This document shows, one piece after another, positions 5,534-16,672 of a stretch of 64,000 nt of DNA; position 1 is the stretch's first letter; each line of letters opens with the position of its first letter. Below the pieces are notes generated by a model, which searched no databases, was not told where the DNA came from, and was given only the letters and a program-made list of their open reading frames with translations. The DNA is taken from assembly GCF_000212735.1 (NCBI RefSeq), contig NC_015510.1, positions 2,816,315 to 2,880,314 on the forward strand, read 5' to 3'. Source of the stretch: Haliscomenobacter hydrossis DSM 1100. GTDB taxonomy: Bacteria; Bacteroidota; Bacteroidia; Chitinophagales; Saprospiraceae. The position numbers and the translations under genes were made by a program.

Positions 5534-5583
5534 TTCACAAAATTTAATTGTTCACGTTTCGTGAACACTGGTAATTTGTGAAC
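5533..5583. promoter_or_regulatory. proximal four-half-site operator overlapping the abiEi start
   Basis: GTTCAC half-sites lie at 5533 and 5550 and GTGAAC half-sites at 5561 and 5578, with the same spacing (11, 5, 11 nt) as the hairpin at 5156. The rightmost half-site abuts the ATG at 5584, and the leftmost overlaps the -7 box. AbiEi antitoxins are known to repress their own promoter through inverted repeats, which this arrangement fits. Confidence 0.7.
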
Positions 5584-6582
5584 ATGGCAACAAATGATGT
5601 AGTAGGCATTGCCTTGGCGAATCTTCAGCGGAATGTCGGAATTACTGGCAAATGGAAAGCCATTGGCCTAAAAGAACTGGATGGACAATTGACCCTTAAT
5701 ATTGATGACCATAAATTCAATTTCAATGTTGAAATAAAGCAAGAATTAAGAAATTACCAATTGCCAAACATCATTACTCAAGCCGAAAGTTTTAAACCGC
5801 TAATTGTAGTGGCAAATCGGATTTTCCCTAAAATCAAAGCAGAGTTAAGGGCAGAGCAGATTGCTTATTTGGAAGCGAATGGCAACATTTACATCAAACA
5901 AAATGAATTCATGCTTTGGGTGGATGCACAAAAGCCCATCCAGAAAGAAAAAGACCAAGTAAACCGGGCATTCACCAAAACCGGATTAAGTGTTGTGTTT
6001 CACTTCTTTATGAATGAAAATTTCATCAATCTTCCTTATCGACAAATTGCGAAACTAACTGAAGTCGGCCTGGGCAATATCCACTATGTCATGAATGGCT
6101 TGCAAGAAATGGGTTTTTTAATCAAGCTGAATAAAAATGAGTATCAGCTCAGCAACAAAAAGGCGTTGTTGAACAAATGGATGGAAGCGTATGCCGAAAA
6201 GTTAAAGCCCAGCCTTAAAGTAGGTACGTTCCGCTTTTTGAAAGCTGAAGATTTTACCAACTGGAAGCAAATTCCACTCCGCTCAGGCAAAACATGGTGG
6301 GGGGCGGAACCAGCTGGAGACTTATTTACCAACCATTTGCACCCCGCAGAATTGACCTTGTACACACTTGAAACCAGAACTGATTTAATCAAGAACTATC
6401 GCCTGATACCCGACGACTTGGGGAATGTGAAAGTGTATAAAAAATTCTGGCACCATGATGAAGTGAATGATAATGTGGTGCCGCCATTGCTAATTTATGC
6501 CGATTTGATCAATAGCAATGACAGAAGATGTATAGAAACAGCCCAAAAAATATACGATGAGTTTTTACAAGATAAATTTTGA
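5584..6582 (+). CDS. abiEi: AbiEi-family antitoxin / transcriptional repressor
   Basis: A 332-residue protein resembling the long AbiEi antitoxins of type IV toxin-antitoxin systems. A beta-rich N-terminal region (to about 120) is followed by a winged-helix segment around residues 145-185 (LPYRQIAKLTEVGLGNIHYVM) and a C-terminal domain ending PPLLIYADLINSNDRRCIETAQKIYDEF, a tail typical of the family. I prefer ATG at 5584 over GTG at 5578 because the GTG is part of an operator half-site. The stop lies 26 bases inside the following toxin gene, giving translational coupling. By analogy it neutralises the nucleotidyltransferase and represses the operon through the GTTCAC/GTGAAC operators. The function is inferred from family and layout. 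Confidence 0.8.
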   Translation: MATNDVVGIALANLQRNVGITGKWKAIGLKELDGQLTLNIDDHKFNFNVEIKQELRNYQLPNIITQAESFKPLIVVANRIFPKIKAELRAEQIAYLEANGNIYIKQNEFMLWVDAQKPIQKEKDQVNRAFTKTGLSVVFHFFMNENFINLPYRQIAKLTEVGLGNIHYVMNGLQEMGFLIKLNKNEYQLSNKKALLNKWMEAYAEKLKPSLKVGTFRFLKAEDFTNWKQIPLRSGKTWWGAEPAGDLFTNHLHPAELTLYTLETRTDLIKNYRLIPDDLGNVKVYKKFWHHDEVNDNVVPPLLIYADLINSNDRRCIETAQKIYDEFLQDKF

Positions 6583-7432
6583 GCAGCTGCGACAGGATCC
6601 TCAGATCGGTGAGATGCTTTCAGCCTTGGAACGGGGTTTGGATGAATTTGGCATCGATTTTTATTTGGTGGGTGCTTTAGCGAGAGATGTATGGATGAGG
6701 GGTATCCACAACATCACCCCAAGAAGAACAACCAAAGACATTGATTTTGCAGTGCTGATCAACGATAAAGGTGTCTATGAAGCACTTAAGGATCATCTGA
6801 TTGCAAAAGAAAAATTTGCCTCTTCGAAAGAAAATGCGTTCGTCCTGCTCTGGAAAGGCCGCTATCAAGTAGACTTGTTGCCATTTGGAGCCATTGAAGA
6901 TGAAGACGGTAAAGTAGAAACCCAAGGAGTTGGTTATACTTCTATCCTTGTGCCGGGATTCAAAGAGGTCTACGATAGCGGCTTACCACAGCTACAATTA
7001 GAAGACCAACACCAATTCAAATTTTGTACCCTGCCGGGCATCATTTTATTGAAACTGATTGCCTGGGATGACCGACCCGAAGTAAGGAGAGATGACATAA
7101 AAGACATCAGCGACATCTTGAAGCACTTTTTCAACATGTATGACAATGAAATCTGGGACAACCACAACGATCTTTTTGGAAACGAAAACTCCAATCTTTT
7201 ACACATTGCGGCAAGGGTAATGGGGCGAGAAATGGGCGAAATCGCAAGACGGAATTCAAAAATATGGACCAGAATCGAGGGGATTCTTCACGCAAATACT
7301 GTAGATATCCGAACCAGCAAAATGGCTGTAATCATGGTAGAATATTTTAAAAATACGGTTGAAGAGAATGTAGCTTTATTGGTGGAAGTAAAGCAGGGGA
7401 TGTTGGAAAGGGAGAATTTGAATGAAGGGTAG
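6557..7432 (+). CDS. abiEii: AbiEii-family nucleotidyltransferase toxin
   Basis: A 291-residue protein of the AbiEii/AbiGii nucleotidyltransferase family. The N-terminal catalytic signature is visible: FYLVGALARDVWM (about 36-48), then TTKDIDFAV (about 58-66) with the two metal-binding aspartates, and a third acidic position in YQVDLLPFGAIED. The remainder is helical, as usual in the family. The start at 6557 overlaps the end of abiEi, the normal arrangement for this pair. AbiEii-type toxins act as nucleotidyltransferases and cause reversible growth arrest in phage abortive infection. The next gene, hsdR, converges 57 bases away. Confidence 0.85.
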   Translation: MSFYKINFEQLRQDPQIGEMLSALERGLDEFGIDFYLVGALARDVWMRGIHNITPRRTTKDIDFAVLINDKGVYEALKDHLIAKEKFASSKENAFVLLWKGRYQVDLLPFGAIEDEDGKVETQGVGYTSILVPGFKEVYDSGLPQLQLEDQHQFKFCTLPGIILLKLIAWDDRPEVRRDDIKDISDILKHFFNMYDNEIWDNHNDLFGNENSNLLHIAARVMGREMGEIARRNSKIWTRIEGILHANTVDIRTSKMAVIMVEYFKNTVEENVALLVEVKQGMLERENLNEG

Positions 7433-7489
7433 GCCATATTTCTCAGATGGTTGGCTATTTTTATCGCTCGTTGGCCTGAAATACCATCA

Positions 7490-10400
7490 CTATTGATATT
7501 TTTTGATGCCCCTCAATTTATCATAAGCCTCGGATGCCAGCCATTTAGTCACCAATTTTTGGAAAGCTGAGTCATTCATAAACCTAGCGAAAATGTCTTC
7601 ATTTTGATCCATTCGCTCCACAAACAGCGATTGTAAAAGGTTTTGAAAAACCAAGATAAACTTATCCTCTGGATTTACTTCTGCTGCCTTGATGATGGAT
7701 TCATCTCGGATTGCCGTCTCGATCAGTTGATCAAAGAACAACTGGTCAGCTTGGTTGAAGTCTGTACCAAACCGCTCATTAATTAAGTCAATTAAGCGTG
7801 ACAGTACCATGGGGTCTTCCCGCACTACACCTGTTCCCACTTCAGTCGGGCCGTCGAGTGCTTGAGCATAACCTTCCCTAAGATTGATCGATCCTTCACT
7901 AATTTTTTGAAGCCGATAGTATTCAAGTCTTATTTCGTCATCAAAATTGTAGCGCGGGCCACTGTGGCGAAGTGGCAATTTGGGGGATAGATGCCGTAAA
8001 AAAACATACAATTTTTCGAGGTCAGAATCTTGATAAGGAATTACCTGACTTAGAAAATTATAAAGATTTCGAAAGGATTGTAATCTGCCGCGCCAAAGTT
8101 CAGCTTCTTCTTCATTGTCTCGTAGGAAAACGGTAAATCTTGAAACAGCAGGGTCAAGGGAAGCATTTATGGCTTCGTGGTCTGCTGGGCTTTGTCGCTG
8201 TTTGGGTTTAAAATACACCATGCAGAAACGTTCTATTTCTTCTGGCATGTAAATACCTGAAACATCCAATTCATTCTGCAAACGGTACATGTGAGCCGGG
8301 TCAACCTCTTCACCTATTTCAGCACCTTCAAAGTACATTTTGAAGGCAGTACGGATTTCCTCCCGGTCATTTACAAAATCAAGTACAAATGTGTCTTCTT
8401 TGAGTGGGTGGATTCGGTTAAGCCTGGAAAGGGTCTGAACTGCTTGAATTCCTGCCAAACGTTTGTCCACATACATGGTGTGCAGTAATGGCTGATCAAA
8501 GCCAGTTTGATATTTTTCTGCTACCAACAATACGTGATATTCAGGAGTATTGAATTTTTCTGGTAATTCTTTTTCCTTTATTCCTTCGTTCATCCCTTCT
8601 TCTGTATAGCTCTTATTGGGAATCTTATCGTCATTGACCGTACCCGAAAATGCTACCAGAGACTTGATTGCATAACCTTTGGCCTTGATGTAATCATCGA
8701 AACTAACCTTGTAACGAACTGCCTCTAAACGTGACCCAGTAACCACCATGGCTTTGGAATGTCCACCTATTTTGTGGCGCGTTACTGCATAAAAATGCTC
8801 CACCATAATTTCTGTTTTCTGGGCGATGTTGTGCGGATGTAGCCTCAGAAAACGGGCAAGTGCTTTTGCTGCATTTTTGCGCTCAACTTGTGGATCGTCG
8901 CCACTGGCCTGTACGAGTTTGAAATAGGTCGCGTAGGTGGTATAGTTTTTCAAAACATCAAGAATGAAGCCTTCTTCAATGGCTTGACGCATGGTGTACC
9001 TATGAAAGGGAGTGCCATTTTTTCCAAAAACTTTCAATGTCTTGTGCTTTGGTGTGGCTGTAAACGCAAAAAAACTGAGGTTGTCCTGGCGACCTCGCTT
9101 GGCCATACTGCGGTACAATTCGACCAGTTTTTCTTCTCCTTCTTCAGTGGCCCGGCGTTGGGCTTCTTCTACCAAGCTTTCACCACCTAATACTTCTTTC
9201 AGATCGGTGGCAGATTCTCCTCCTTGCGAGCTGTGTGCTTCATCAATGATCACTGCAAACCGACGAGTGGGCAAAATACCTCCTCCGGCTTCGCCACGTT
9301 CTTCAGCCATTTTCATGAGCTGCCTTGAGACAAAAGGAAATTTCTGTAATGTGGTGATCACGATGGGCACCCCATTTTCCAAGGCCTCGGCTAGTTGTCT
9401 AGAATTGTCGTCAATTTTCAAAACCACACCCCGCTTGTGCTCAAACTGGTAAATGGTATCCTGCAACTGCTTATCAAGTACCAGCCTGTCGGTAATCACG
9501 ATAACGGAATCGAATACTCGGCTGTTTTCTGCACTGTGCAAGGAGGCAAGACGATGTGCCAACCAAGCGATGGTATTGCTCTTGCCGCTACCAGCGGAGT
9601 GTTCAATCAAATAGTTGTTCCCTATGCCATCGCTTTGAGTTGCATTAACCAGAGACCTGACCGCCTCCATTTGGTGATAGCGCGGAAAAATCATCGTTTC
9701 TTTTTTCACTTTTCGCCCTTCATCTGTAAGTTTTTCTTCGACTTGAAGGTGAATATAGCGGGCGAGCAAATCAAGCAGGCTATCGCGTTGCAAAACTTCT
9801 TCCCAAAGATACGCTGTGCGGTAGGTGCGCCCATTCCGGTCAGGGGGATTTCCTGCACCACCTTCCCAGCCTTTGTTGAACGGCAAAAAATAAGTTGCAT
9901 TGCCCGCAAGGCGGGTAGCCATAAATACTAATTCTGTATCCACTGCAAAATGTACGAGTGCCCGACGCTTGAACTCAAACAGTATTTCACGTGGATCACG
10001 ATCCTGTTTGTACTGCTTCTTGGCGTGTTCAACAGTTTGGTTGGTCAGCGGATTTTTGATTTCCAGCGTGGCAATGGGGACTCCATTTAAACTAATCGTG
10101 AGATCAAGGGATTGATTTCCGCGTGCAGAATACTGAAGTTGGCGGGTTATTCCCAAACAATTGGCAGCATAATTTGCCTCCAACTCTGGGTTCATGGTAT
10201 GCGCTGCTTTAAAGTACGCAATGTATAGGGTACGACCATAGCATTTGAACCCATGCCTTAGGGTAGTTAGTGCGCCATACGTATCCATCCATTTGCACAA
10301 GTCACCAAGAACTTGTTCCGAGGTGTGTTCAGCATGTAGGGCTTCTAGCTTTGCCCATTCTCTGGGTTGGGTGGTTTGAATAAAGTCTAATACCTTTTGT

Positions 10401-10513
10401 GGAAAAATTACTCTGGTTTTATCATAACTATTTTTGTTAACTGGTTTATAGCCGTTTTCGAGAAGGTGGGTTTCGATGACAGTTTCGAAGGCGGATTCGT
10501 TTGTGTTTTGCAT
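7490..10513 (-). CDS. hsdR: type I restriction enzyme R subunit
   Basis: A 1007-residue HsdR. The N-terminal PD-(D/E)xK nuclease has LDLTISLNG (D137) and TLEIKNP (E151, K153). The helicase motor follows, with Walker A GSGKS (308-312), DEAH (424-427) and the motif III-like FAFTATP. RecA-like domain 2 carries LLVAEKYQTGFDQP and VQTLSRLNRIHP. The C-terminal helical region presumably docks to HsdM. R subunits translocate DNA after target recognition by HsdS and cut at a distance. It is the last gene of a five-gene minus-strand operon (hsdM, hsdS, ATPase, HNH, hsdR) and starts 4 bases after the HNH gene. All key motifs appear intact. Confidence 0.95.
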   Translation of the reverse strand: MQNTNESAFETVIETHLLENGYKPVNKNSYDKTRVIFPQKVLDFIQTTQPREWAKLEALHAEHTSEQVLGDLCKWMDTYGALTTLRHGFKCYGRTLYIAYFKAAHTMNPELEANYAANCLGITRQLQYSARGNQSLDLTISLNGVPIATLEIKNPLTNQTVEHAKKQYKQDRDPREILFEFKRRALVHFAVDTELVFMATRLAGNATYFLPFNKGWEGGAGNPPDRNGRTYRTAYLWEEVLQRDSLLDLLARYIHLQVEEKLTDEGRKVKKETMIFPRYHQMEAVRSLVNATQSDGIGNNYLIEHSAGSGKSNTIAWLAHRLASLHSAENSRVFDSVIVITDRLVLDKQLQDTIYQFEHKRGVVLKIDDNSRQLAEALENGVPIVITTLQKFPFVSRQLMKMAEERGEAGGGILPTRRFAVIIDEAHSSQGGESATDLKEVLGGESLVEEAQRRATEEGEEKLVELYRSMAKRGRQDNLSFFAFTATPKHKTLKVFGKNGTPFHRYTMRQAIEEGFILDVLKNYTTYATYFKLVQASGDDPQVERKNAAKALARFLRLHPHNIAQKTEIMVEHFYAVTRHKIGGHSKAMVVTGSRLEAVRYKVSFDDYIKAKGYAIKSLVAFSGTVNDDKIPNKSYTEEGMNEGIKEKELPEKFNTPEYHVLLVAEKYQTGFDQPLLHTMYVDKRLAGIQAVQTLSRLNRIHPLKEDTFVLDFVNDREEIRTAFKMYFEGAEIGEEVDPAHMYRLQNELDVSGIYMPEEIERFCMVYFKPKQRQSPADHEAINASLDPAVSRFTVFLRDNEEEAELWRGRLQSFRNLYNFLSQVIPYQDSDLEKLYVFLRHLSPKLPLRHSGPRYNFDDEIRLEYYRLQKISEGSINLREGYAQALDGPTEVGTGVVREDPMVLSRLIDLINERFGTDFNQADQLFFDQLIETAIRDESIIKAAEVNPEDKFILVFQNLLQSLFVERMDQNEDIFARFMNDSAFQKLVTKWLASEAYDKLRGIKKYQ

Positions 10514-10517
10514 AACT

Positions 10518-11207
10518 TTAAATTTTTCCTCCCACTCGGTTGATCAAATTTTCGTTGTGGTCAAAACAATCGGCAGCAGTACCAATAAATGCTACTCTTA
10601 GCCTTTCTCTCATATCTTGATCCCCGTTAAAAACAGTCCACCAAATGGAAAACATACCTCGTCCCACTGCATTACTTACGATAAGTTCTCGAACTTCTAT
10701 AGTATTGTTTGCAATCAATTTATTTTTACATTCTTCAGCAAGTTGCCAAACCTGTTGACGTCTGAGCCACCTTCTATCTTTTTTGGTTGGTCTACTTTTA
10801 ATGTCGGGGTTGCCGGGTTCATTATCTAACCCTACTAATTTTATCGTACTCATTGCCAGAACTTGAATAGAGGCAGGTACAGTGGTATTAACTTTAACCA
10901 ATCCACCAGTTGAATATTCAAAAGCCATTAGTGTATTATCAATATCTGGCCAGAGGTAGTTGTCTAGTATTATTTTCTTCCTACCTTTCTTAGAGTTGCA
11001 GTTGACACATGCAAGCAAAAAATTGATCCATGAATTCCTAAGTGCAGGAACATGAGTTTTGGCTTGAATATGTTCAACCGCAAGGTGGGTTTCGATGTGA
11101 CGCTCACAGTAGCTACAAAACTCACCAATACAGCTTTGAAGATCAGAAGCTGCATCTTGATAATTAGCATAAATGTTAGGAGCGTTTCCTTTTGTTACAG
11201 GCCGCAT
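10518..11207 (-). CDS. HNH endonuclease, PtuB/TIGR02646-like
   Basis: A 229-residue protein with an HNH/zinc-knuckle nuclease core: C31-x2-C34, H46 in VEHIQ, N62 in NSWINFLLAC, and C67-x2-C70. The rest is helical with a basic patch (PTKKDRRWLRRQ). In Septu defence (PtuA ATPase plus PtuB HNH nuclease) and in retron-Ec78-like systems this type of nuclease is controlled by an adjacent ABC-like ATPase. Here the ATPase gene ends one base upstream. The position between hsdS and hsdR in one operon is notable. Assignment to Septu rests on architecture, not on a database match. Confidence 0.75.
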   Translation of the reverse strand: MRPVTKGNAPNIYANYQDAASDLQSCIGEFCSYCERHIETHLAVEHIQAKTHVPALRNSWINFLLACVNCNSKKGRKKIILDNYLWPDIDNTLMAFEYSTGGLVKVNTTVPASIQVLAMSTIKLVGLDNEPGNPDIKSRPTKKDRRWLRRQQVWQLAEECKNKLIANNTIEVRELIVSNAVGRGMFSIWWTVFNGDQDMRERLRVAFIGTAADCFDHNENLINRVGGKI

Positions 11208-11208
11208 T

Positions 11209-12471
11209 TTATTCTTCCAATTTTAATTTACGCTCAATATTAAGAAATGCCTGAAAGGCAGGGTCATCACTAAAAGGTATTGAAAGCTCATTTAGCTTTT
11301 GTTTGGCATGCTCAACTTCAATTGTCGATTTATCACCTACATTATGAAGTAGTGTAAAGTAAGCTTCAGCCGCTTCCATCATTTCAATGTATCGCTTGCT
11401 TTTTTGTGGCATTTTAACTCCCATAACAAACTCCGTAATATCCTCGATGCTCTCATCAGAATATTCTTCATCCAGTTCTTTAGGATCCAAATTGATCAAT
11501 TCTCCTTCATTTAAGGACTGTATAATGAAAGGAGAATGGGTAGTTGTTATGAATTGAATGTTAGGAAACGTTTTCCTAAGTTTGTCCCTAATCTCTCTTT
11601 GCCACTTCGGATGCAAATGCAATTCCAATTCATCAATCAAAACAACTCCAGCTCCTTCAAGTGGGTTCTTCAACGCTGGATTAGCAAGTGCAAGCCTTCT
11701 GCTTAAATCACAGATTAGGGCTATTAAAGATCGTTCACCATCAGATAGTTGGCGTAAATCTAATTTTTCTCCGTGTTTACTGACCCATAGCTTTAAGGGG
11801 TTTTCTTGCACCTGAAGTTCAGCAAACCCATCAAGGAAATATTCAATGGCTTTATTGATAGCCTTGACTGCATTTGCGCCCAAAAAAGAAGAATTTTTTA
11901 TTTTTTCATCATTCGTTAGCGTAAGTGCAACACGATAACGAGACATGAAGTCTTTATAATCAACCATTCTGTTAAAAAGCGCCCCATTATAAGCCATTGC
12001 TTGGCCAGAAGTTACAATCTGAGGTAGCGCTTTGGGAAAACGATATCCTGCCCGGTCAGTCGTATAATAAACAACCAAAGGTGCTTGATCATCAGCGCGC
12101 GAGGGGTCACCATAGGCATTTTTTATAGTCTTGGAAACTTCAGCATATAATTTCTGAGGTACGACTTTTCGATCAACCCCATAAATAGTCACAAAATAAT
12201 CAAGTGGAATTCCTGCGCAATTTGTCTTTACACTGATATTGGCTTCGCTCGCACTTAAATGAACATCCGTCTCAGACACTTTTTTGGTCTGCTTTTTCGC
12301 TTCAGAAATTTGAGGCAACAAATAAGAAAACAAAAGCACCAACCCATCCAATATTGCCGTTTTTCCACGGCCATTCACACCTGCAATGACTGTGAAATGT
12401 TCTGAAAAAGGGAACTTAACGGTTTCTCCAAAACCCCTGAAGTTAGATATAGTTAATTCTCGAATTCGCAT
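11209..12471 (-). CDS. ABC/SMC-like ATPase, PtuA/OLD-like
   Basis: A 420-residue ATPase of the RecF/OLD group. Visible motifs are Walker A GVNGRGKTAIL (about 31-41), signature LSDGERSL (about 243-250), Walker B VVLIDELELHLHP and the H-loop TTTHSPFI. The middle (about 60-230) has no recognisable coiled coil of RecN length. There is no Toprim domain, so it is not a complete OLD nuclease. Paired with the HNH gene it matches the PtuA role: nucleotide-gated control of the nuclease. It lies one base after hsdS and one base before the HNH gene, so it is translated from the R-M operon mRNA. It is likely a second defence effector that responds to phage, possibly to failure of restriction (inference). 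Confidence 0.75.
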   Translation of the reverse strand: MRIRELTISNFRGFGETVKFPFSEHFTVIAGVNGRGKTAILDGLVLLFSYLLPQISEAKKQTKKVSETDVHLSASEANISVKTNCAGIPLDYFVTIYGVDRKVVPQKLYAEVSKTIKNAYGDPSRADDQAPLVVYYTTDRAGYRFPKALPQIVTSGQAMAYNGALFNRMVDYKDFMSRYRVALTLTNDEKIKNSSFLGANAVKAINKAIEYFLDGFAELQVQENPLKLWVSKHGEKLDLRQLSDGERSLIALICDLSRRLALANPALKNPLEGAGVVLIDELELHLHPKWQREIRDKLRKTFPNIQFITTTHSPFIIQSLNEGELINLDPKELDEEYSDESIEDITEFVMGVKMPQKSKRYIEMMEAAEAYFTLLHNVGDKSTIEVEHAKQKLNELSIPFSDDPAFQAFLNIERKLKLEE

Positions 12472-12472
12472 A

Positions 12473-13726
12473 TTAATCGGTTATTTCGATTTGCCCCGTG
12501 ACTGCTGCGGAAATTAGTGCCTTCCTACGTTCTTTCAGTAATTCTATACTTTTTGTATTGGCGACTCGAAGAGCATCAAGTTTAGAGATTTTTTTCTCTA
12601 GACATTGGATTATGGCAAATTGCTCATCTACAGAAGGTGGAAGTACCACGATTGTGCTTCCAAGTTCTTCAGCATTTAGATGAGGTTGTGCAGCTCTGAC
12701 ACTCATCGGTATAAGTTGACTTTCAAGTACGTAAGGAGAGAGTAAGACATAGGCTAGAAAATTTGGGTTTACTCTTTTATTTGGTTTAAATACCATGTCA
12801 AAACCTGCAACGGCCCCTTCCCATTCCTCTGTAACCAATGCACTATCAGCCGTATACGCTCCGCTTCTTACTATGATAATATCACCTGTTTTCAGAATAA
12901 CTTTCTTTGATTCAGGTAGATCATCTTCATTCACAAATACTAAACCTTCCTTTCTGATTTCCCCTCTGTACACATTTGTTGCTCGAACTAATGGTAGGCC
13001 ATCTGCATGATATCCGGGGGGCTGACTCAATCCGTAAAATATATCTCCCAAATATTTAACCCTAATTTCCATCCACCCGTCCGGCACCTCGCCAATCCAT
13101 TCCACCCCTGCATGCTTCATTTTTATCTCTTGGTCAAAGCCCCGAGTAACTGCCTGTGTGATGAGCGCTTGTCGTTTTTCCGCCAATAGGGTAATTAGTC
13201 GTTCTTTAGCAGAGATGAGGCCATCTATGCGCGTGGTTTCGCGATCAAGGTATGAGGCAATGCGTCGCTGAATATCAATAGGAGGAAAAAAAATATACTG
13301 ATCTCCAATAAAGCCCCAATCTGCTCGGGGCATTTTTGATCCAAATGAAGAACCCGTTATGGCGTCCAATAATTCCTTTTCAAGGAAATTATATTTAAGA
13401 TAATACGGATCAATTAATTTAGGAATCAATACAATTAACTCAGTTGTGCAGCGTCCTGAAAAATTTGCAACCCATGCCTTGGCGAGGTAAGGTCTTAATT
13501 TCCCGAAAAGCACATCGCCTGGTTCAAAAAGATTGCAAAGGGACTCTCCAGCTTCTGCCATTTCATCAGGTAAATCTCCGTTTTCTAAAGGCGAAATTAA
13601 CAGACGTCCTGAACTTGACTCAATATGTTCTAAACCAATATAAGGCCTAGAATTTTCCAAACCTTCTACCCGTTCTTTTCGTAAAGAAACTGAATGCTTC
13701 AATTTTATTTTAGATTCATTTATCAT
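12473..13726 (-). CDS. hsdS: type I restriction specificity subunit
   Basis: A 417-residue HsdS with the expected two target-recognition domains (about 15-150 and 215-370). Each is followed by a conserved helical spacer: IASYLDRETTRIDGLISAKE ending EKRQALITQAVTRG, and the C-terminal counterpart LEKKISKLDALRVANTKSIE ending ERRKALISAAVTGQ. The spacers set the distance between the two halves of the bipartite DNA target, which cannot be predicted here. The start overlaps the hsdM stop by 4 bases (13723-13726). No internal inverted repeats or second hsdS fragment were seen, so there is no sign of phase-variable specificity switching. Confidence 0.92.
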   Translation of the reverse strand: MINESKIKLKHSVSLRKERVEGLENSRPYIGLEHIESSSGRLLISPLENGDLPDEMAEAGESLCNLFEPGDVLFGKLRPYLAKAWVANFSGRCTTELIVLIPKLIDPYYLKYNFLEKELLDAITGSSFGSKMPRADWGFIGDQYIFFPPIDIQRRIASYLDRETTRIDGLISAKERLITLLAEKRQALITQAVTRGFDQEIKMKHAGVEWIGEVPDGWMEIRVKYLGDIFYGLSQPPGYHADGLPLVRATNVYRGEIRKEGLVFVNEDDLPESKKVILKTGDIIIVRSGAYTADSALVTEEWEGAVAGFDMVFKPNKRVNPNFLAYVLLSPYVLESQLIPMSVRAAQPHLNAEELGSTIVVLPPSVDEQFAIIQCLEKKISKLDALRVANTKSIELLKERRKALISAAVTGQIEITD

Positions 13727-15684
13727 TCCGTTACCTCCTTTAGAAGTTTCAAAATTTCCTCTTCAACTTCCTTTAACTCCTTATCTATCAACTCTAGCTT
13801 ACGAGGTGGTAGAAAAACGTAAAAGTGACTATTAAAATTAATCTCATACCCGACCTTATCCTTACTTCGATCTATCCAGGCGTCAGGCACATGAGGTAAT
13901 ACTTCCCGCTGAAAGTATTTTTCAACGTCTTCCGAAAGCGGGATATTTTCAAAATCGCGCAGTTCGGAATCGGGCTCATAGCTGTTTTTGCTTTTCAGCA
14001 CAGGTACAGCTTCTGGGTCACGTTGAGTAAACACATCTCGAAAGAGTTTGTGCTCCGTAGCTTTCCATTTCAAGCGGAGTATTTTGCGGATGCGTTGATC
14101 TGTCTTATTCCAATCCATGATAGGTTCACGACCTAGTGCTTTGTCAATGGCCTGAATGTCATCGAGTAGGTGTGGACAGGCATCCAGGAACCGAGATTTG
14201 TCTTCGAGCGTCATCTGGTAACGCAGGCGCAGGGGGCGTTCCACCGTGACGCGGGTATAGCCGAAGTCGGTATTGTTGAAAATTTTGGCATGCTTCGTCT
14301 CTTCGAAGCGTCCGTATAACTGCACAATATCGACAATCTGTTCTTCCGCTATTTCGCGCCGCTTGTCCCCAAGACTTCTGCGCATGGGTACAAAAAAATC
14401 ACGGGCATCCAACAACTGGATTTTTCCTTTCCGGCGTTTTTCCTTGCGGTTGGTTACGATCCAAACATAGGTTCCGATACCAGTATTGTAAAACATCTGC
14501 TCAGGCAATGAGACTACAGCTTCAAGCCAGTCATTTTCAATGATCCAGCGGCGAATATTGCTTTCGCCTGAACCTGCGCCACCTGTAAAAAGCGGTGATC
14601 CACTGAAGACAATGGCCAATCTGGAACCGTATTTTCGATTTGCTTCGTCAACGGGTTCAAACTTGCTGATCATGTGTTGGAGGAACAGCAATGCGCCGTC
14701 GTTTACCCTTGGCAGGCCTGCTCCAAAACGGCCTGCAAAACCCATTTTTTGGTTTTCTCGGGTTATTTCGCTTTGCTGCTTTTTCCAGTCAACACCAAAT
14801 GGTGGATTGGAAAGCAAGTAGTCGAATTTGTTTTCTTTGAATTGATCTTCTATCAAACTATCACCAAATTTGATATTTTCCCCCAGCCCATTATGTGCCA
14901 CCTCTTTGATAAGCATGTCTGAAGCGGCAGTGGCAAAAGCTCGTTTGTTGTAGTCTTGGCCGTACGTGTAAAGTTTGGCCTCTAGGTGATGTTCTCTGAG
15001 ATAAGCCTGTGCTTCGGCCAGCATGCCACCTGTTCCACAAGCCGGATCAAACATAGTACGCACAGTTCCAGGTGTAGTCAGTAGTTTGTCATCGTTGATG
15101 AACAAAAGGTTAACCATGAGCCGAATCACCTCGCGGGGTGTGAAGTGATCCCCGGCAGTTTCATTGGCCAATTCGTTGAATTTCCGAATAAGGTGTTCGA
15201 AAATTTTACCCATGTCCGTATTGGACACGGCATTGGGATGCAAATCAACGGTGCTAAACCGAGAAACAACCAGGTATAAGATATTCGCCTCATTCATCCG
15301 CTCGATTTCTTTTTCAAATTCGAAATATTCGAAGATGCGGCGTACATTTTTGGAGAACCCATTGATGTAACTCACGAGGTCTTTGGCAATGCTATCGGGA
15401 GCGCCCTTCAGGCGTTCAAAGGTAAGTGGCGAGTGATTGTGAAATTGTTGTTTGGAAATTTTATTGAGCCTGGAATCGATAACGCCGTCCTGCCCATGAT
15501 ATTTACTATCCAATTGCTGGTACTCTTTTAATACAGCTTCTTTAGTTGGTGCCAGCACACAATCAAACCGGCGTAACACGGTCATCGGAAGCATGACCCG
15601 CTCATATTGAGGTGGTCGATAAGGCCCTCTCAATAAATCCGCAATTTGCCAAATGAGGTTGATATGATCGTTGTGGTTCGCCAT
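13723..15684 (-). CDS. hsdM: type I restriction modification (N6-adenine) methyltransferase subunit
   Basis: A 653-residue HsdM, first gene of the operon. An N-terminal helical HsdM_N domain (1-150) is followed by the methyltransferase fold: HFTPREV (180-186), the SAM-binding motif I DPACGTGG (213-220), and catalytic motif IV NPPFG (293-297). The long C-terminal extension ends in an acidic helix (LKEVEEEILKLLKEVTE) that should contact HsdS. It methylates adenine in the HsdS target and protects host DNA. No clear TAnnTTTG promoter was found in the roughly 200 bases upstream, which are shared with the divergent small gene at 15890. Confidence 0.93.
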   Translation of the reverse strand: MANHNDHINLIWQIADLLRGPYRPPQYERVMLPMTVLRRFDCVLAPTKEAVLKEYQQLDSKYHGQDGVIDSRLNKISKQQFHNHSPLTFERLKGAPDSIAKDLVSYINGFSKNVRRIFEYFEFEKEIERMNEANILYLVVSRFSTVDLHPNAVSNTDMGKIFEHLIRKFNELANETAGDHFTPREVIRLMVNLLFINDDKLLTTPGTVRTMFDPACGTGGMLAEAQAYLREHHLEAKLYTYGQDYNKRAFATAASDMLIKEVAHNGLGENIKFGDSLIEDQFKENKFDYLLSNPPFGVDWKKQQSEITRENQKMGFAGRFGAGLPRVNDGALLFLQHMISKFEPVDEANRKYGSRLAIVFSGSPLFTGGAGSGESNIRRWIIENDWLEAVVSLPEQMFYNTGIGTYVWIVTNRKEKRRKGKIQLLDARDFFVPMRRSLGDKRREIAEEQIVDIVQLYGRFEETKHAKIFNNTDFGYTRVTVERPLRLRYQMTLEDKSRFLDACPHLLDDIQAIDKALGREPIMDWNKTDQRIRKILRLKWKATEHKLFRDVFTQRDPEAVPVLKSKNSYEPDSELRDFENIPLSEDVEKYFQREVLPHVPDAWIDRSKDKVGYEINFNSHFYVFLPPRKLELIDKELKEVEEEILKLLKEVTE

Positions 15685-15889
15685 AATGTGTCTGAAACCT
15701 ACCGATTTGTTGATTGGTTATAAAAAGCCGTAAAATACTAAAACCGCTCAATAAAGCCAACTCCAATCCAAGATGTAACCAATAACCAATTAGCGTTTAT
15801 CCCCCTTCTGTAACCAAAATCACTGTCTTCCAACTTTCCTTCCCCGATTTTTGCAGGAATTAAACTCAATCTGCCTTCAAAAAACGACT

Positions 15890-16147
15890 ATGAAAGAAAG
15901 AATTTTAACCGGATGGACCCTCACCCGAGTATTGTACCTGGTAATGGGAAGTTACATTGTTGCCCAATCCGTACTGGATCAACAGTGGGTTGGCATCCTG
16001 CTGGGTGGGTATTTTGCTGCAATGGGCTTATTTTCCTTTGGGTGTGCGGCGGGTAATTGCGGGGTGGGCAACTATTCGGAAGGGCAAAAAAATCAGGGTT
16101 CCGCCAATTTTGAAGAGGTAGCATTTGAAGAGGTAAAACCGAAGTAG
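15890..16147 (+). CDS. small membrane protein, DUF2892/YgaP-like
   Basis: An 85-residue protein starting at ATG 15890 (MKERILTGW); an upstream in-frame start at 15851 would add 13 residues unlike a mature protein. Two transmembrane helices are visible (about 8-25 and 29-50: LTRVLYLVMGSYIVAQ, and GILLGGYFAAMGLFSFGCA), then C-x3-C (CAAGNC) and an acidic tail. It resembles the short YgaP-like transmembrane proteins of Bacteroidota often found near thiol or rhodanese genes, but no such neighbour is present here. It is divergent from hsdM. Function unknown. Confidence 0.7.
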   Translation: MKERILTGWTLTRVLYLVMGSYIVAQSVLDQQWVGILLGGYFAAMGLFSFGCAAGNCGVGNYSEGQKNQGSANFEEVAFEEVKPK

Positions 16148-16282
16148 CAAGATCAATTTAAGCAGAGGATATCCGCAATTTTTCCCTTTTCTCGTGTACA
16201 GTTCCGTGCAAAACTGTACGGTTTCGATCAATCAGGCTTTATGATTCAAGCATAAGGTACTCATTTTCTACGCCTTATTTTT

Positions 16283-16318
16283 TTGGCACATCATTTGTTC
16301 TACAAAAGTTGAACTAAT
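16283..16318 (+). promoter_or_regulatory. conserved upstream element of PadR-permease module 1
   Basis: This 36-base block begins TTGGCAC, contains CATTTG and CAAAAGT, and ends TAAT 10 bases before the padR ATG. It matches the block at 23376-23411 at 29 of 36 positions. Conservation at the same distance from two paralogous padR genes suggests the shared promoter and/or PadR autoregulatory site. Confidence 0.5.
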
Positions 16319-16327
16319 GATCCAAGC

Positions 16328-16672
16328 ATGAGAAGATACTACCTGGGAGAATTTGAAGAAATCGTATTGCTGACCGTCGCGGTATTGGGTGAGGGTGCCT
16401 ACGGTGTATCCATCACCAATGAACTGGACGCACAATCGGGGCGCAGTGTGAGCCTTAGCGCGGTACATGCTGCGTTGCACCGTTTGGAAGAAAAAGGAAT
16501 GCTCTCATCCTACCTCGGTGACGCTACGGCTGAAAGGGGTGGCCGCCGCAAACGGCTGTTTTCGGTAACCGCCTTGGGTAGCCGAACCCTGCACGAAATC
16601 CGTTCCGTGCGCGACAGCCTGTGGAAGGCTATTCCACCGAATTCATTGCCCGCAATCGCTACCAGCCTATGA
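16328..16672 (+). CDS. PadR-family transcriptional regulator
   Basis: A 114-residue winged-helix regulator. The core is YGVSITNELDAQSG (helix 1-2), then the recognition region VSLSAVHAALHRLEEKGML, and the wing AERGGRRKRLFSVTALG. PadR proteins act as dimeric repressors, often of a co-transcribed transporter. The stop overlaps the permease start as ATGA (16669-16672), a strong sign of coupled expression. A paralogous pair with the same overlap is found at 23419-23754. The ligand is unknown. Confidence 0.9.
   Translation: MRRYYLGEFEEIVLLTVAVLGEGAYGVSITNELDAQSGRSVSLSAVHAALHRLEEKGMLSSYLGDATAERGGRRKRLFSVTALGSRTLHEIRSVRDSLWKAIPPNSLPAIATSL

Follow-up and report, generated by a model that had tools for sequence, protein, structure and literature searches.

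Does the tight embedding of a nuclease gene pair in a restriction operon mean that the two act together? This question is raised by a stretch of 64,000 nucleotides (the window) from the genome of Haliscomenobacter hydrossis DSM 1100, phylum Bacteroidota (contig NC_015510.1, positions 2,816,315 to 2,880,314), in which two genes resembling ptuA and ptuB of the Septu defence system stand between hsdS and hsdR of a type I restriction-modification (R-M) operon. A first-pass annotation of this DNA had suggested a two-layer system in which restriction and an ATPase-controlled nuclease share expression, the nuclease perhaps firing when restriction is inhibited. We found that the operon is a Septu-type module within a type I R-M operon and that the arrangement is real and recurrent. 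In the reading that we favour with moderate confidence, PtuAB is co-transcribed and probably autonomous Septu cargo carried by a complete type I R-M operon.

A Septu-type pair within a complete type I R-M operon

The gene order is hsdM-hsdS-ptuA-ptuB-hsdR, all genes lie on the minus strand, and the successive junctions are -4, +1, +1, and +4 bases. The order and junction sizes given in the first-pass annotation were thus borne out by the open reading frames (ORFs) and by Pfam and PADLOC identities (Table 1). The type I R-M set is complete, since hsdM, hsdS, and hsdR were all recognised in the window by Pfam and PADLOC. All Pfam assignments of the five operon proteins exceed the Pfam cut-off, and NCBIfam pointed to the same kinds of protein below its cut-offs, with 199 of 285 bits for HsdR and 90.5 of 243 bits for HsdM.

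The ptuA and ptuB genes are adjacent on the same strand with a gap of 1 base, the configuration of a Septu gene pair. Matches to the PADLOC models were nearly full-length for both PtuA (PDLC00271, 367 bits, residues 1–412 of 420) and PtuB (PDLC00315, 279 bits, residues 1–226 of 229), and Pfam assigned PtuA to the families AAA_21 and AAA_15 and PtuB to HNH (31.5 bits). The catalytic residues are intact: PtuA has K37 of Walker A, S243, G245, and E246 of the signature, D280 and E281 of Walker B, and H312 of the H-loop, and PtuB has H46, N62, and both CxxC pairs. The PtuA/PtuB architecture proposed earlier is therefore confirmed, while the TIGR02646 label attached to PtuB denotes resemblance, not membership, since its score of 40.7 bits is below the NCBIfam cut-off of 52.15. 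The NCBIfam retron-Ec78 models also scored below their cut-offs (245.9 of 500 bits for PtuA and 48.7 of 150 bits for PtuB). Among PDB chains, the ATPases of retrons Ec83 and Ec78 were the best matches of PtuA, followed by 8ee4, a chain named PtuA; PtuB showed weak matches to PtuB/TIGR02646 chains.

Embedded ptuA genes are under purifying selection, with dN/dS of about 0.13, 0.15, and 0.16 in three pairs, which are rough values for the two pairs with dS above 1; the Aquitalea pair was too close for a verdict, and ptuB was saturated or unvaried. In the collected loci L006, L128, and L146 (L-numbers are locus labels), PtuB evolves far faster than its neighbours, and in L006 and L146 three of its four CxxC cysteines are replaced.

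Judging by the junctions, the five genes likely form one transcript that would start ahead of hsdM. A promoter pattern of the Bacteroidetes type had no matches inside the operon and four in the whole window versus 3.2 expected, and sigma-70-like sites were at chance level (15 versus a mean of 16.7). An internal promoter for ptuAB, although it may exist, was supported by neither pattern scan.

Recurrence of the arrangement and contents of the hsdS-hsdR slot

PtuA relatives were gathered by sequence similarity regardless of context, except for the plasmid loci L006 and L007, whose choice was guided in part by mention of a restriction subunit in their records. With gene labels assigned from phmmer seeds of few loci, so that divergent hsd genes may be missed, 20 of the 112 PtuA rows including the window (19 besides it) were in loci with hsdM and hsdS, L083 being counted on hsdS alone. 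The genes hsdS, ptuA, ptuB, and hsdR directly followed each other in 12 of those 20 loci (11 besides the window). Extra genes were present between ptuB and hsdR in L082 and L120; L083, L122, and L149 were cut by contig ends; L113 has a gene between hsdS and ptuA, L107 has no recognised hsdR, and in L076 the pair is located between hsdM and hsdS. In L065 and L082, ptuB seemed absent owing to an ORF-picking artefact, and the gene is present in both. The five-gene order is annotated on a conjugative plasmid of Ketogulonicigenium vulgare and, together with an extra hsdS gene and a SprT gene, on a conjugative plasmid of Enterobacter sp. MGH 14, where the embedded locus adjoins Tn7-like transposition genes. 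Among 23 PtuA loci on viral contigs, the full order was found in two and hsdM-hsdS-ptuA-ptuB in one.

Phylogenetic trees were built after short or weak sequences had been left out of the 112 rows (21 for a 91-row tree, 35 for a 77-row tree). Most hsd-embedded PtuA fell into two clades in the 77-row tree, clade I (the window, L057, L065, L082, L083, L084, and L086; support 100/93) and clade II (L056, L090, L149, L092, L120, L122, L128, L006, and L146; support 99/97), and the other hsd-embedded rows L007, L113, and L076 were scattered. Both clades were also recovered in the 91-row tree. A single origin of clades I and II was rejected, since the approximately unbiased (AU) test, applied to groups named after viewing the tree, rejected their union (p 0.018).

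A scan of genome contigs with the clade I peptides of the window, L057, and L065 yielded seven loci. In all seven hsdS was directly upstream, and hsdM and hsdR were also present in six, the seventh locus ending with its 3 kb contig. The query loci L057 and L065 account for two of these (L080 and L081), and Aquitalea contributed two almost identical loci, L084 and L085, so that only four or five are new, from Corallococcus, a Gemmatimonadaceae metagenome-assembled genome (MAG), Aquitalea, and a Proteobacteria MAG. The MAG with L065/L081 is titled Bradyrhizobiaceae and was grouped in the window's phylum. A scan of the genome contigs with a single sequence gave no confirmed match. Twenty genomes re-checked with a clade I model contained no further member, the best score being 269 bits compared with 688 to 726 bits for three model members, and among 150 genomes of Gemmatimonadota clade I was found only in one, which was already known. 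By phylum, PtuA places were located in hsd loci in 4 of 40 cases in Bacteroidota (40 of 86 places viewed with context, the window's own excluded), 6 of 25 in Pseudomonadota (25 of 30 viewed, L084 excluded), and 0 of 15 in Myxococcota (15 of 16 viewed, L082 excluded).

The five-gene order, searched across genomes, thus recurs in distantly related bacteria. The first-pass annotation had held that a pair found only here would speak against its proposal; this does not apply, because the arrangement recurs elsewhere. Of the 16 loci in clades I and II, 14 have a printed junction of -4 to +4 bases between hsdS and ptuA, and in the remaining two (L082 and L092) the printed overlap came from an over-long ORF start, the homology-based starts giving -4. 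Since the arrangement recurs with such tight junctions, it is more than a chance neighbourhood.

Starting from HsdR, the slot between hsdS and hsdR was surveyed across 296 genomes belonging to the same phylum as the window (threshold E 1e-120, identities from 38% upward). HsdR matches occurred at 58 places in 52 of the 296 genomes; 44 of the 58 were examined, those left out being mostly weaker matches. Both hsdS and hsdR were recognised in 34 operons, and at least 270 bp separated them in 28, but PtuAB occupied the slot in only three (the window, L065, and L056). A gap of at least 270 bp was also found between hsdM and hsdS in 19 of 33 cases. Of ten slot proteins from nine other loci, eight matched PADLOC defence families and two had no match. 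The matches included a Hachiman-like pair (PDC-M23A/B), SoFic, a Schlafen AlbA_2 protein, FRG (PDC-S15), RhuM-Fic (PDC-S23), a PD-(D/E)xK-like protein, and an M78 peptidase. The loci L150, L151, and L152 encode HsdR 66% identical to that of the window and yet have other slot content, and in L120 (2367–6771) PtuAB and IetAS are stacked in one slot in the order hsdS-ptuA-ptuB-ietA-ietS-hsdR. The hsdS-hsdR slot is therefore a general cargo site, and PtuAB looks like one of its recurrent cargoes. A joint mechanism was not accepted on the grounds of tight spacing, because the same slot carries other content.

The varied slot content, together with the wide gaps that also occur between hsdM and hsdS, would be expected if the slot were a passive hotspot that tolerates insertions because they leave hsd function undisturbed and at most delay hsdR expression. 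PtuAB would then not be selected for any link with restriction and could be a transient occupant. We consider this reading highly improbable, since two PtuA clades persist in this position in more than one phylum, with closely joined genes and under purifying selection.

The chassis and its cargo differ strongly in conservation. In 48 comparisons of clade I with clade II (6 by 8 loci), identities were 56–78% for HsdM and 66–80% for HsdR, versus 29–35% for PtuA and 18–27% for PtuB; identities were calculated over the shorter protein, HsdR of L056 and L120 was partial, and PtuB of L065 and HsdR of L122 (off contig) were not part of the comparison. For instance, the window and L092 of clade II are 73% identical in HsdM, 74% in HsdR, and 30% in PtuA, while the values for the window and L084, both of clade I, are 66%, 71%, and 48%, respectively. 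For L057 and L092 the identities are 78% (HsdM), 80% (HsdR), 32% (PtuA), and 27% (PtuB), and for L128 and L006, both of clade II, 87%, 90%, 75%, and 32%. Because PtuA and PtuB diverge where HsdM and HsdR stay alike, the PtuAB cargo seems to have been replaced on a conserved Hsd chassis. The third-position GC content in the window is 0.31 in hsdS, 0.32 in ptuA, and 0.30 in ptuB versus 0.48 in hsdM and 0.43 in hsdR, which fits the arrival of hsdS-ptuA-ptuB as a block; the contrast in overall GC is alike in L057 and not clear in four other loci checked. HsdR is about 1,180 aa long in L065 (2636–6184), L082 (11931–15485), and L057 (8925–12470), compared with 1,007 aa in the window, and its C-terminus in L065 and L082, read by eye, resembles an S24/LexA-type peptidase.

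Relation of PtuAB to restriction

In the favoured reading, HsdM and HsdS would methylate DNA and, together with HsdR, restrict unmodified DNA. PtuA and PtuB, as homology suggests, would form an ATPase-nuclease complex that attacks nucleic acid on a trigger of its own. The target could be tRNA or phage DNA; each has been published for relatives of PtuAB, and the sequence does not decide between them. Embedding in the hsd operon would provide shared expression and joint transfer, and the cargo would be exchanged over evolution while the hsdM-hsdR chassis is kept. We infer from the sequences that these genes are active and that PtuAB is independent of Hsd.

The earlier idea of a two-layer system with a nuclease dependent on restriction is unsupported, given the generic slot and the divergence of PtuAB on like chassis. 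A residue signature common to the two hsd-embedded clades beyond a control was not found either. Among 71 rows outside hsd loci, the lowest shared columns of a candidate hsd-specific PtuA signature occurred at 3% and 14%, no better than in a BREX/Myxococcota control pair (4% and 15%). The motif FSxWxxVF of clade I PtuB, considered as a possible Hsd adaptor, was also present in L093, L112, L116, L118, and L121, in which no hsd genes were recognised. Moreover, a free-standing relative exists in E. coli, where a pair with PtuA 59% and PtuB 53% identical to the embedded Enterobacter pair is located between smrB and a fimbrial cluster, without hsd genes in both contexts seen. DNA partly similar to this pair was detected in 187 of 5,426 E. 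coli genomes, with query coverage not exceeding roughly one half among the matches listed; a stricter search mode returned none in the same 5,426 genomes.

An experimental precedent is TgvAB, encoded by two genes of the five-gene type I R-M cluster in Vibrio cholerae VPI-2: with an HsdR nuclease mutant, TgvAB protected much like the intact cluster (PMC11411939). This favours autonomous PtuAB cargo.

Several observations weigh against such autonomy. The E. coli pair that stands alone falls into the PtuA lineage of L007 and not into clades I and II; no free-standing member of the window's clade I was found among the PtuA loci collected. Clades I (7 of 7) and II (9 of 9) were found only with hsd genes, 16 of 16 in total, or 8 of 8 for clade II without the annotation-picked L006, an exclusivity exceeding what loose cargo would predict. 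In addition, tgvAB on its own gave weaker protection than the complete cluster, for which the authors suggest a possible imbalance of the two proteins (PMC11411939), and the case of PrrC demonstrates that an embedded gene can be coupled to its type I locus (PMC12707154).

The exclusive occurrence of clades I and II in hsd loci would be accounted for if PtuAB were a guard like PrrC, kept silent by the Hsd complex until an anti-restriction protein of a phage blocked or remodelled that complex. This guard reading, in which the output would be tRNA or DNA cleavage and abortive infection, is near the idea of the first-pass annotation. The tight junctions between hsdS and ptuA agree with this, and so does the PtuA tree, since six changes of the hsd label were counted on the 91-row tree, at least five of them forced by supported branches. 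Separate entries into hsd loci would be the simplest reading of these changes, although such counts do not distinguish gain from loss. There are published analogues: PrrC, embedded in EcoprrI, responds to inhibition of that system by T4 Stp (PMC12707154), and PtuAB of retron Eco7, which depletes tRNA-Tyr, is neutralised by the reverse transcriptase together with msr-msd (PMC11555353). PtuAB may thus guard Hsd, chiefly in clades I and II. Nevertheless, we regard this as rather unlikely, since partners bound to conserved Hsd surfaces would hardly diverge on alike chassis to the PtuA and PtuB identities given above. Residues specific to hsd loci did not exceed the control, the PtuB motif recurs in pairs without recognised hsd genes, and most operons examined hold other slot content.

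Co-expression could also pay without contact between the two systems, if phage DNA broken or nicked in the course of HsdR translocation and cleavage were sensed and degraded by PtuAB. PtuA is a Rad50/SMC-like ATPase, another Septu reportedly targets DNA (PMC11555353), and various PtuAB lineages pair with one chassis type, all of which is consistent with such sequential action. We find it very unlikely, because the slot also holds SoFic, FRG, and RhuM-Fic, which have no evident link to DNA ends, and tRNA is the target of other PtuABs (PMC13096335, PMC11555353), including Septu EcB88, which cleaves tRNA-Tyr (PMC13096335).

Adjoining the operon, on the plus strand and convergent with the end of hsdR, an AbiEi_2 protein gene overlaps a gene for an AbiEii-like nucleotidyltransferase (window 5578–7432). 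The latter protein is below the Pfam cut-off and weakly matches PDC-M21B. These genes are a second candidate defence unit.

Table 1. Features of the operon and of a second PtuAB locus in the same genome (window positions unless stated otherwise)
Feature	Position	Strand	Description
hsdM	13723..15684	-	653 aa; type I modification subunit; Pfam HsdM_N and N6_Mtase; PADLOC MTase_I PDLC03029, 889 bits, residues 2–652; FDPACGTGG and NPPF in translation
hsdS	12473..13726	-	417 aa; specificity subunit; 4-base overlap with hsdM; Pfam Methylase_S in two stretches; PADLOC Specificity_I PDLC03105, 293 bits
ptuA-like	11209..12471	-	420 aa; ABC/SMC-type ATPase; PtuA clade I
ptuB-like	10518..11207	-	229 aa; HNH nuclease
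hsdR	7490..10513	-	1007 aa; type I restriction subunit; PADLOC REase_I PDLC03040; Pfam HSDR_N, SWI2_SNF2, T1R_D3-like
Inverted repeat ATTGGTTAT / ATAACCAAT	15713..15790	.	60 nt between arms; upstream of hsdM; candidate operator
Type III-B PtuAB operon	L079 5994-14598; C1:7776100-7791400 of the window's genome		ptuA-ptuB between cmr1 and cas10

Comparison with known systems

It is already known that type I R-M loci can house defence genes, and the embedding itself is expected. Here this theme can be read as turnover, with HsdM and HsdR alike across distant hosts and the content between hsdS and hsdR changing; two lineages of PtuA also seem tied to this site. Matched operons with a like chassis and other or no PtuAB could separate functional coupling from shared expression, and a joint mechanism should not be concluded from tight gene spacing alone. 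No description of PtuAB inside a type I operon was recognised in the literature, within a partial coverage judged by listings and passages.

Septu has been associated with Hma and with reverse transcriptases (PMC8565338), and its embedding within other defence systems has been mentioned (PMC12255303). In our collection, PtuAB of L040 adjoins BREX genes confirmed by PADLOC (PglX, HEC-06/Orf5, and PglZ), and that of L058 adjoins PADLOC-confirmed HmaA and HmaB genes; in L041–L045, L059, L063, and L071 the pair stands beside BREX or Hma genes labelled by seed similarity. The PtuA of L040–L045 forms a separate clade. These pairs, like that of the window, are located among the genes of another defence system, but with other host systems and other PtuA lineages. 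The window's genome contains a second, distant PtuAB in a type III-B CRISPR operon (cmr1-ptuA-ptuB-cas10-cmr3-cmr4-cmr5-cmr6); a search at E 1e-70 of the remaining 294 of 295 genomes of the class turned up no relative of its PtuA.

Such contexts suggest a broader picture, which we consider unlikely: PtuAB may be a portable killing module captured by different sensors, namely retrons, type I R-M, BREX, Hma, and a type III-B CRISPR operon, with clades I and II being dedicated Hsd guards, a PrrC counterpart that arose at least twice. If so, PtuAB of these clades would stay inactive alongside an intact restriction complex and fire once a phage disables it.

Among systems embedded in type I loci, TgvAB resembles the window pair in consisting of two defence genes, whose position the authors compare to that of a gene between hsdR and hsdS. 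However, TgvA and TgvB belong to the GmrSD type IV family with its domains DUF262 and DUF1524 (PMC11411939), whereas the window pair encodes an ABC ATPase and a PtuB-like HNH nuclease. Neither DUF262 nor DUF1524 was detected in the pair by Pfam at E 0.01, which gave AAA/SMC-type families for PtuA and HNH for PtuB. PrrC is another nuclease with its gene in a type I R-M operon, EcoprrI, but is an anticodon nuclease sensing restriction inhibition (PMC12707154, PMC11555353); its name was absent from the best 25 of 159 PADLOC matches of PtuA and the best 25 of 55 of PtuB. DarTG2, found between hsdS and hsdR in a type I R-M island with RptR at a site that is possibly a recombination hotspot (PMC12255303), and the Campylobacter rlo genes, foreign genes between hsdS and hsdR (PMC5183652), occupy the same site as the window pair with unrelated cargo.

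The type I-A retrons Ec78 and Ec83 (Septu type II) also have a PtuA/PtuB effector pair, the Ec83 ATPase being the top PDB match of PtuA. In the window, hsd genes occupy the place of the reverse transcriptase, and no reverse transcriptase family was found in a Pfam scan of nine window proteins (5578–16672). The window pair is like Septu type I in being an ATPase-HNH pair in the order ptuA-ptuB, with nearly full-length PADLOC matches and intact Walker, signature, and H/N residues. It differs from Septu type I in its location inside a complete hsd operon and in scores below the NCBIfam cut-offs for retron-Ec78 and TIGR02646.

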